A program made the translations under genes and the position numbers. 64,000 bases of DNA. It comes from Nitrospira japonica. Its GTDB lineage: Bacteria; Nitrospirota; Nitrospiria; Nitrospirales; Nitrospiraceae. This document shows, in pieces, positions 6,826 through 48,256 of this stretch. The notes under the pieces were generated by a model. That model ran no database searches, was not told the DNA's origin, and saw only the letters and a list, made by a program, of their open reading frames with translations. The first letter of the stretch is position 1. Each line of letters starts with the position of its first letter. Where the stretch lies: contig NZ_LT828648.1 of assembly GCF_900169565.1 (NCBI RefSeq), forward strand, positions 1,862,876-1,926,875, given 5' to 3'.

Positions 6826-6835
6826 CGCGATGTCT

Positions 6836-6890
6836 ACAGGGGATGGGGTCCCCCGTATAACCGCCACGGCCAGGCTGATGACTCCTACGT
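6836..6890 (+). ncRNA. Fluoride riboswitch (crcB motif)
   Basis: The stretch holds the conserved parts of the fluoride aptamer in order: GGGGATGGGGTCCCCC, then AACCGCC, then GGCTGATGACTCCTAC. These correspond to the GGNGATG-G stem, the pseudoknot-forming loop and the closing CTGATG-CTCCTAC element of the crcB motif. It lies about 90 bases upstream of the antiporter start, in the same direction. A 7-bp hairpin (GTCGCCA/TGGCGAC, 6915-6931) sits between aptamer and start codon and could be part of the expression switch. The aptamer family is known to sense fluoride and turn on detoxification genes. Confidence 0.88.
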
Positions 6891-6977
6891 CGTATTGCCG
6901 CAGCCGTGGGGTCTGTCGCCATCGTGGCGACGACCGGTCTGACGCAGTCGAATGCTGGCCGGAATGGAGGACTCCCG

Positions 6978-24650: not shown

Positions 24651-24870
24651 GGTTCATCCTCCGGTTATGCCATATTCCACCTTGAATTCGAGCCCTACGC
24701 TGGCCTGTCTACCCACACTTGGGCCTATTCTAGCCAAAGGTCGGTTCGATTGCGAATGTTGACGGCCACGCTCTCCTGAACGCGTGTCGCAAGTGAGGAA
24801 ACGAATGGACGTTTTCAGGATGAGGCGGAGAGCAGGGAGTGTCTGGATGCCCTATAGAATGGAAAAGAAC

Positions 24871-24907
24871 AACGGGGCGCTGTCCCATATGGAACAGACA
24901 CCCCGTT
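24871..24907. terminator. Terminator after tRNA-Asn
   Basis: A long GC-rich hairpin (AACGGGG...CCCCGTT with one bulge, ATAT loop) lies directly after the tRNA on the minus strand and is followed by TGTTCTTTT. The plus-strand side also ends in TTTTCTTT, so it may work in both directions. Confidence 0.7.
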
Positions 24908-24916
24908 TTCTTTATA

Positions 24917-25240
24917 TGGCTCCCCGGGCAGGACTCGAACCTGCGACCAGCCGGTTACAAGGACTCCCTATCTTTCGAAAGGGCTTGGACTATCTCTTCA
25001 CCCACCTGGGTTTTCAGGGAAGGGTGTCGGGCGCTCGTGAGGCGATATTGGGTCGGCTCCTCAGCCTCTAGTCTCTGCACGTTCCTGCCTACTGAGTGCC
25101 GTTCGGCAGGCTTCGCTCAGGATTACCGTTCCGGCTACACGGAGACGGCTTCCCTGAATTCACCCGATGTTTCAACCACAGTTTCCTGTGGAAGCTGCAA
25201 GTTTTACAGCCGGCTGCTCTACCAACTGAGCTACCGGGGA
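24917..25240 (-). tRNA. tRNA-Asn (GUU), interrupted by a group I intron
   Basis: Exon 1 is 25240-25206 (tRNA positions 1-35) and exon 2 is 24957-24917, with CCA encoded. Joined, they form a regular 76-nt type I tRNA: acceptor TCCCCGG/CCGGGGA, D arm GCTC...GAGC, anticodon stem GCCGG/CCGGC, loop CTGTTAA and T loop GTTCGAGTC. The anticodon is GTT, giving Asn. The intron splits the anticodon between its second and third bases. Without splicing, the unjoined sequence could be misread as a tRNA-like fragment with GTA. No other tRNA-Asn is in the window. Confidence 0.92.
24958..25205 (-). ncRNA. Group I intron (IC3-like) in the tRNA-Asn anticodon
   Basis: 248 nt. Exon 1 ends GGCTGT, which pairs with the internal guide GCAGCT seven bases into the intron, with a U-G wobble at the 5' splice site. 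The last intron base is G. Core elements are seen in order: P near GAATTCAGGGAA, Q near GTAATCCTGAGC, R in GTGCAGAGACTAGA and S in AAGAGATAGTCC. These match tRNA-type group I introns. There is no homing endonuclease frame. The ribozyme should splice itself; mobility is unlikely without a partner. Confidence 0.93.
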
Positions 25241-42380: not shown

Positions 42381-42800
42381 GGGGGAAGACCGGGGGATCG
42401 CTCATCGCGGAACGCGATGAGAGGAAAGTCCGGACTTCACGGGCAGGACGCTGGGTAACACCCAGGCGGAGCAATCCGACACCAGCACCACAGAGAACAG
42501 ACCGCCGATGGCCAACGCGATGAGATCTCTCATCGTTGCGGCACAGGTAAGGGTGAAACGGTGGGGTAAGAGCCCACCGCGGTGGTGGTGACATCACCGG
42601 CAGGGTAAGCGTCGTCCGATGCAAGGCCAAATAGGAAGACACCATCGGTTCTTTTCGGAGAGCCGGTGACCAGCTGGCCCGGCTGAGGTCTTCGGGTAGG
42701 TCGCTTGAGGTTCGGGGTAACCCGAATCCCAGAGAAATGATCTCCGCCGACTGAGAGCATATCCTGGTCGGCACAGAATCCGGCTTATAGGTTTTCTCCA
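42381..42800 (+). ncRNA. rnpB: RNase P RNA (class A)
   Basis: The bacterial RNase P consensus blocks appear in order: GAGGAAAGTCCGGACTTC, ACAGAGAACAGACCGCC, AAGGGTGAAACGGTGGGG, AGGCCAAATAGG and CACAGAATCCGGCTTATAG. The first helix pairs GGGGAAGACC (42382) with GGTTTTCTCC (42790), which fixes the ends. It is the catalytic RNA that matures tRNA 5' ends. An open frame on the opposite strand is spurious. Confidence 0.96.
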
Positions 42801-42906
42801 CCGCGCGCATCATTTCGCACTCCTCCGTACCACGTCCAACCTCGAAATCGCTCTATTGACCTGTCACAGGTGGGATGATAGGATCTCGGATCTTTCCCAT
42901 TGTTTT

Positions 42907-47206: not shown

Positions 47207-48006
47207 AGACTACTGGACTGCGCCAGTCGTTCGCCAAAGGCGGGAAGCGTCATAAAGCGGCGATGCATTTGATCCCGAACCTGTTCACGACGGGGAACTT
47301 GTTCTGCGGTGTATTCGCGATCCTGTCGGTCTTTAACGCAAACTACCTGGCCGCCGCAGTGGCGATTCTGGTGGCCATGGTGTTTGACGTTCTCGACGGC
47401 AAATCCGCTCGCTTGACCAACAGCACCAGCCATTTCGGCTTGGAATACGATTCGCTTTCCGACGTGGTGTCGTTCGGCGTCGCTCCTGGTCTGCTCATCT
47501 ATTCATGGGCGCTCAGTGGACAGGGCACGTTCGGCATTGCGGTCATGTTTGCCTACGTGGCCATGGGTGCGGTGCGTCTCGCGCGATTCAACGCTTCAGC
47601 GACTGCCTCGGACGGAAAGTATTTCACCGGACTGGCCATACCGGCTGCCGCAGGCGTCGTGGCCTCTTTGGTAATTTTCGATCATCACGTCGTGCGAACC
47701 GGCTCGGAAATCAAGCCGATCTTGGTGCTGATTATCACCCTGGTTTTGTCGTTTTTGATGGTCAGCACTATCAAGTATCGGAGTTTCAAGGACTTGAAGT
47801 TCCGAGGTGGTCGCCACATCACCTATCTAGTATGGGGCATCCTGACCGTGGTACTGGTGGCGGCGTGGCCCCAGGTTATGCTATTTGTAATCTTCGCCGG
47901 GTACGCACTGCTCGGTCCCGTCGAGCGGCTGATCACCTTAGTGACGAGGACGGGAAAGCAGATACAGCCGAAAAAGGAACAGCCGGCGGTCGAATCAAAG
48001 TTCTAG
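47203..48006 (+). CDS. pssA: CDP-diacylglycerol-serine O-phosphatidyltransferase
   Basis: 267 residues with about eight membrane segments. The CDP-alcohol phosphotransferase motif is complete (DVLDGKSAR, eight residues, then GLEYDSLSD). It makes phosphatidylserine, which Psd then decarboxylates. The T-box leader of leuA begins just after its stop. Confidence 0.95.
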   Translation: MKTTGLRQSFAKGGKRHKAAMHLIPNLFTTGNLFCGVFAILSVFNANYLAAAVAILVAMVFDVLDGKSARLTNSTSHFGLEYDSLSDVVSFGVAPGLLIYSWALSGQGTFGIAVMFAYVAMGAVRLARFNASATASDGKYFTGLAIPAAAGVVASLVIFDHHVVRTGSEIKPILVLIITLVLSFLMVSTIKYRSFKDLKFRGGRHITYLVWGILTVVLVAAWPQVMLFVIFAGYALLGPVERLITLVTRTGKQIQPKKEQPAVESKF

Positions 48007-48256
48007 GGCGACGACGAGGAGTAGTAGGTCATTCGTCGAATCAAGAGAGCTGGTGGGTGGTGCAAACCAGTTTCGACGACGCCGAACTCGCCTCCGAGCC
48101 AGAGTCCATGAAACACGAGTAGTGGATTCCGCCTGGCCCCGTAAGGGCTGAATGAAGGATCTGGATAAACAGTATCCGGGTCGAATCAGGGTGGTACCAC
48201 GAAGCGCCTCAAAGCCTTCGTCCCTGGGTTCTAGGGGCGAAGGCTTTTGTCTTTTT
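48007..48256 (+). promoter_or_regulatory. T-box leader (leucine) of leuA
   Basis: Stem I opens with GACGACGAGGAGTAGTA and shows the AGAGAGCTGGTGG and GGTGCAAACCAG pattern of T-box stem I. A likely specifier, CTC (Leu), lies at 48087-48089 inside GAACTCGCC. The invariant T-box motif AGGGTGGTACCACG is at 48188-48201. Directly after it a terminator hairpin (AAAGCCTTCG...CGAAGGCTTTTG, 48211-48250) ends in a T run. Uncharged tRNA-Leu should stabilise the antiterminator and turn on leuA. The leader lies between pssA and leuA, so it acts as an internal operon switch or has its own promoter within pssA. Confidence 0.88.
48211..48256 (+). terminator. Conditional terminator of the leuA T-box
   Basis: AAAGCCTTCG pairs with CGAAGGCTTT around a region that includes a second short pairing (CCCT/AGGG); a TTTTGTCTTTTT tail follows. 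In a T-box leader this hairpin competes with the antiterminator. Confidence 0.85.

Follow-up and report, generated by a model that had tools for sequence, protein, structure and literature searches.

A tRNA-Asn gene interrupted within its anticodon

The tRNA-Asn(GUU) gene of Nitrospira japonica is interrupted within its anticodon by 248 nucleotides that very probably constitute a group I intron predicted to splice itself from the tRNA precursor. Judged by its sequence, this intron belongs to a site-specific family inserted between nucleotides 35 and 36 of tRNA-Asn (site 35/36). The split gene lies on the minus strand of the 64,000-nucleotide stretch of DNA analyzed here (the window). Its 5′ exon (25206..25240) comprises tRNA nucleotides 1–35 and has the 3′ end ...CCGGCTGT; its 3′ exon (24917..24957) comprises nucleotides 36–76 with the CCA encoded; and the intron between them (24958..25205) lacks an endonuclease open reading frame. 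Both the sequence itself and ARAGORN indicate that minus-strand positions 25240–25206 joined to 24957–24917 form a 76-nucleotide tRNA-Asn(GUU) that includes CCA. With introns allowed, ARAGORN called tRNA-Asn(gtt) at exactly 24917–25240 with a 248-nucleotide intron after nucleotide 35; with introns disallowed, the program called zero tRNAs in the window. The splice junction is unique in that a shift of one base wrecks the anticodon loop.

The Rfam model Intron_gpI (RF00028) matches positions 25216–24966 with 87.5 bits (E = 5.8e-21), well above the gathering score of 50. The initial annotation had described a tRNA-Asn(GUU) split by 248 nucleotides between anticodon bases 2 and 3, a perfect 76-nucleotide tRNA upon joining of the exons, and a group I insert. 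The ARAGORN call reproduces the site, coordinates, exons, and length to the base, and the covariance score establishes the match to group I introns. Uninterrupted tRNA-Asn genes are present in more than 100 of 175 genomes of the family Nitrospiraceae, and most of these are identical to the predicted spliced product (100%, 76/76 nucleotides). These contiguous sister genes provide independent support for the junction. Together with the E-value, they rule out chance pairing as the origin of the split gene; the agreement is far beyond chance.

A strong hairpin and, behind it, a T-rich tail (24864..24913, minus strand; predicted fold −31.6 kcal/mol) lie 3′ of the gene. This terminator-like site is likely an intrinsic terminator, so the tRNA-Asn gene is probably a single-gene unit. 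Genes adjoining the locus encode proteasome subunits, the Pup ligase, and subunits of a pyruvate-type ferredoxin oxidoreductase. Three other structured RNAs were detected on the plus strand of the window: a fluoride riboswitch (6830–6894; 52.7 bits), bacterial class A RNase P RNA (42382–42803; 294.6 bits), and a T-box leader (48002–48228; 97.1 bits, just above threshold). Elsewhere in the genome, identical 3′ segments of tRNA-Lys(CTT) occur 20 kb apart at G000:C1:571247 and 591672, with the full tRNA found only at the first position. An integrated island might leave such a pair of segments.

Fold and covariation of the intron

In addition to the covariance match, the insert contains the hallmarks of a group I intron: a P1 with a U-G pair at the 5′ cut, a terminal G, and a core of P3–P8 and P4–P6 with a P3/P7 pseudoknot. 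The internal guide sequence GCAGCU (25193..25198; all elements are on the minus strand) pairs as P1 with exon nucleotides GGCUGU (25211–25206), leaving an L1 of only 7 nucleotides; this pairing, the U-G at the cut, and the terminal G are as initially described. GCAGC begins every aligned Nitrospirota copy. P2 (25176..25191) and P9 (24966..24983) are hairpins capped by GAAA loops. The 5′ strand of P3 (25161..25167) pairs with CGCCCGA (25033–25027), and the 5′ strand of P7, GACUA (25069..25073), pairs with UAGUC (24992–24988) to form the pseudoknot with P3. The R and S core elements noted earlier are located in P7. Between these strands lie the P4–P5 domain (25117..25157), P6 with P6a (25079..25116), P8 (24999..25026), and an extra helix, P7.1, between P7 and P3 (25039..25068).

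We examined this fold in 28 Nitrospirota intron cores, which aligned well. Across P2–P9 and P7.1, 95.3% of cells are paired and both partners vary in 26 of 59 pairs. No shuffle out of 500 scored as high, and slid versions all fell far below, a control in which the structure is somewhat favored because it was drawn on the sequence of this window. Covariation is found in P2 (4/6 pairs changing on both sides), P6a (four pairs), P7.1 (4/5 pairs), P8 (compensatory changes in both parts of the helix), and P9 (four pairs). P3 (28/28), P4, and P7 are paired in every aligned sequence and are nearly invariant, P7 entirely so; covariation is thus silent on these three helices. P5 is the poorest helix, with 71% paired.

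Subgroup IC3, the type of tRNA-Leu and Azoarcus introns, lacks additional helices in the stretch from P7 to P3. P7.1 is present and covaries, so the sequence indicates that the intron is not of plain IC3 form. In aligned tRNA-Met-type introns the P7–P3 stretch is only 16 nucleotides and P7.1 is absent. The extra helix tentatively suggests subgroup IA; introns of subgroup IA have P7.1 plus P7.2 or P7.1a in this region. The region contains one clear helix in the present copy and, by eye, two hairpins in several copies from Patescibacteria.

Occupied and empty sites and the origin of this copy

Split tRNA-Asn genes were identified in about 18 of the 175 Nitrospiraceae genomes, and introns occupy site 35/36 in about 26 of the 396 Nitrospirota genomes sampled. 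The orthologous locus is empty in four congeners (G187, G153, G353, and G385) whose upstream flanks are about 80% identical over 1.3–1.4 kb, and is occupied in a fifth (G311) by a 555-nucleotide intron with an 88% identical core. Occupied and empty alleles thus coexist, and the intron is optional at its site, a trait of homing introns.

Eight of 32 Nitrospirota tRNA-Asn introns contain in L1 an open frame that Pfam assigns to the HNH family with a score just over the cut-off; four further long copies have no HNH frame. The last 8–53 codons of the frame extend beyond the guide into the ribozyme core in all eight (the intron of L054 and seven others), which indicates that the same DNA encodes both protein and catalytic RNA. 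The present copy, with its 7-nucleotide L1, has no homing endonuclease. Relocation of the endonuclease to another part of the genome was considered and rejected: no HNH relative was found elsewhere, the best match having E = 0.13.

In the intron tree, the nearest relative of this copy belongs to another genus (100/99 support), and the copy of the congener falls outside this pair. The cores of this copy and its nearest relative are 89% identical, compared with 76% for their upstream flanks. In all relatives compared, conservation is higher in the core than in the flanks, which makes this difference weak evidence for transfer. Sporadic occupancy, discordance of the tree, and the presence of HNH-bearing relatives fit a model in which this copy was gained by homing of a relative with an HNH endonuclease in L1 and later lost the endonuclease. 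We consider homing followed by this order of loss likely. The intron might instead be old and vertically inherited within Nitrospirota, with many losses and no recent mobility. Most Nitrospirota Asn introns do cluster, and a single clade for all of them was not rejected (p-AU 0.53). We nevertheless judge vertical descent improbable, since the site is empty in most Nitrospiraceae genomes, several copies keep open endonuclease frames, and the strongly supported partner of this intron comes from another genus rather than from the congener. A search for a close copy on plasmids or in GenBank phages gave no match. An origin of the Nitrospirota intron from phage copies was likewise rejected; on a backbone with weak support, most Asn introns of phages group with those in other phage tRNA genes. 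A few contigs labelled viral group among bacterial copies and may be wrongly assigned; we therefore name no source.

A recurrent site in bacteria, archaea, and phages

A pattern scan of GTDB revealed that at least about 52 of 80 stretches among the matches listed are tRNA-Asn(GUU) genes split at site 35/36. At least about 47 loci lie outside Nitrospirota, in Patescibacteria, Omnitrophota, Elusimicrobia, two Cyanobacteria, Betaproteobacteria, a deltaproteobacterial contig, and others; the matches come mostly from metagenome bins, and single taxon assignments may be wrong. ARAGORN labelled many matches as tRNA-Thr or other tRNAs; re-splitting showed these to be tRNA-Asn genes in which the junction had been misplaced. 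In a tree of cellular introns, all 78 Asn introns are set apart from 16 introns of other tRNAs (100/99 support). Addition of viral sequences weakens the backbone of the tree, so we do not claim a single origin for all Asn introns.

Two contigs of Pacearchaeota, L107 (1943–2178) and L111 (1166–1353), contain a group I intron at the same site of tRNA-Asn. The L107 intron scores 83.1 bits with the Rfam model, and that of L111 reaches the threshold only with a model built in this analysis. Archaeal genes for aIF-2 beta, arCOG04150, Taw3, and FtsZ adjoin the intron on these contigs. Viral contigs of IMG/VR contain 29 tRNA-Asn genes split at site 35/36. Several of these are members of tRNA arrays, in some cases with tail, baseplate, or virion genes nearby, and score above the Rfam threshold; these checks covered a few contigs, and assignments in IMG/VR may be wrong. 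The copies in archaea and phages are relevant to two statements in the literature, namely that all 39 archaeal group I introns accepted in a 2018 survey are in rRNA (PMC6125680), and that phage group I introns were known only in protein genes according to a 2014 review (PMC3984707).

On balance we favor, somewhat cautiously, a model in which site 35/36 of tRNA-Asn(GUU) acts as a hot spot of group I intron insertion in bacteria, DPANN archaea, and phages, which would include the first such introns known in archaeal and phage tRNA genes. Spread between phyla may have occurred through HNH homing or independent invasion. With occupied, empty, endonuclease-bearing, and endonuclease-free alleles of one recurrent site present in many genomes, the cycle of gain, spread, and decay of tRNA introns becomes directly testable. 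In practical terms, tRNA finders run in no-intron mode overlook such genes, and the genomes that contain them then seem to be without tRNA-Asn.

As a separate observation, phage tRNA arrays (L303, L290, L308, L338, L346, L280, and others) contain group I introns in genes for tRNA-Asn and other tRNAs, and two viral contigs (L305 and L341) have three intron-model matches each.

Decoding of Asn codons

The initial annotation had raised the point that, were this the sole tRNA-Asn, all Asn decoding would depend on the ribozyme. Covariance, BLAST, and 3-mismatch pattern searches found no second tRNA-Asn in the genome sequence, and the point stands for that sequence; it does not extend to the rRNA operons and their tRNAs, which lie outside it. 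Neither 16S rRNA nor tRNA-Ile(GAU) nor tRNA-Ala(UGC) was found in the genome sequence, though it is one contig and 99.96% complete. Part of the genome thus appears to be hidden or missing, and the rRNA operons seem to be in that part.

Such hidden DNA, for example near an rRNA operon, might encode an unseen tRNA-Asn that does the work while the split gene is a decayed or unspliced pseudogene. We regard this as very unlikely: perfect exons flank an intact ribozyme, the pattern search detected no other tRNA-Asn even with 3 mismatches, and genomes of the family generally have one full-length tRNA-Asn, in the same syntenic place where checked. A functional split gene remains the preferred reading, and all decoding of AAU and AAC in this organism appears to hang on a ribozyme that cuts within the anticodon.

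Proposed splicing mechanism

The tRNA-Asn(GUU) precursor would carry the 248-nucleotide ribozyme between anticodon nucleotides 35 and 36. P1, formed by the last six exon nucleotides (30–35) and the guide GCAGCU, would borrow two nucleotides of the anticodon stem for a time and compete with the top of that stem. Attack by guanosine after U35 would release the 5′ exon, which would in turn attack after the terminal G; the exons would then be joined and the anticodon arm of the tRNA would refold. By inspection, P10 amounts to at best one pair, as AAAACUU (5′ of the guide) hardly pairs with UAACC of the 3′ exon. With almost no P10 possible, pairing in the anticodon stem probably positions the 3′ exon instead. 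In the Anabaena tRNA-Leu precursor, anticodon-stem pairing of the exons reportedly aligns the 3′ exon. Removal by a tRNA endonuclease and ligase in the manner of archaeal introns, with an incidental group I fold, fits the location in a tRNA and nothing else, and we consider it scarcely credible given the full catalytic core with covariation, the guide pairing, and the terminal G.

Comparison with known introns

Group I introns in the anticodon loops of bacterial tRNA-Leu(UAA), Azoarcus tRNA-Ile(CAU), tRNA-Arg(CCU), and tRNA-fMet are small ribozymes with a U-G pair at the 5′ cut, a terminal G, and GNRA loops on P2 and P9. The present intron resembles them in all these features and differs in its Asn host, its insertion at site 35/36, and the extra P7.1. 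It also resembles tRNA-fMet introns with a PD-(D/E)XK endonuclease (the cyanobacterial type and copies in Nitrospirota tRNA-Met), in that both are mobile tRNA introns with an endonuclease frame in relatives. The tRNA-fMet-type introns form a separate clade (100/99), and their endonuclease is PDDEXK_5, not HNH. Within Nitrospirota, a second intron family splits tRNA-Met(CAU) (L065, L071, L075–L080, L083–L091, L093, and L094), and some of its copies encode a PD-(D/E)XK endonuclease. Group I introns of tmRNA likewise have a tRNA-like host, form site-specific families in many phyla, and include few endonucleases, whereas they are inserted in the tmRNA T-loop (PMC11915505).

Among hosts of group I introns, the tRNAscan-SE 2.0 paper names fMet and Ile2, and a survey of cyanobacteria names Arg, Gly, and Lys. 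Group I introns in tRNAs of Patescibacteria were mentioned by Lui 2021 with no tRNA type given (PMC8172020). We found no bacterial tRNA-Asn group I intron in the literature; a 2025 preprint on Patescibacteria may report the site (Nakagawa, cited in PMC12641178), and the Patescibacteria introns of these two sources may include the same Asn site. The initial remark that Asn is an unusual host holds relative to the papers found; it does not hold in nature, given the occupied sites in Nitrospirota, the loci elsewhere, and the viral contigs. The wider family at site 35/36 is of more interest than this single copy.
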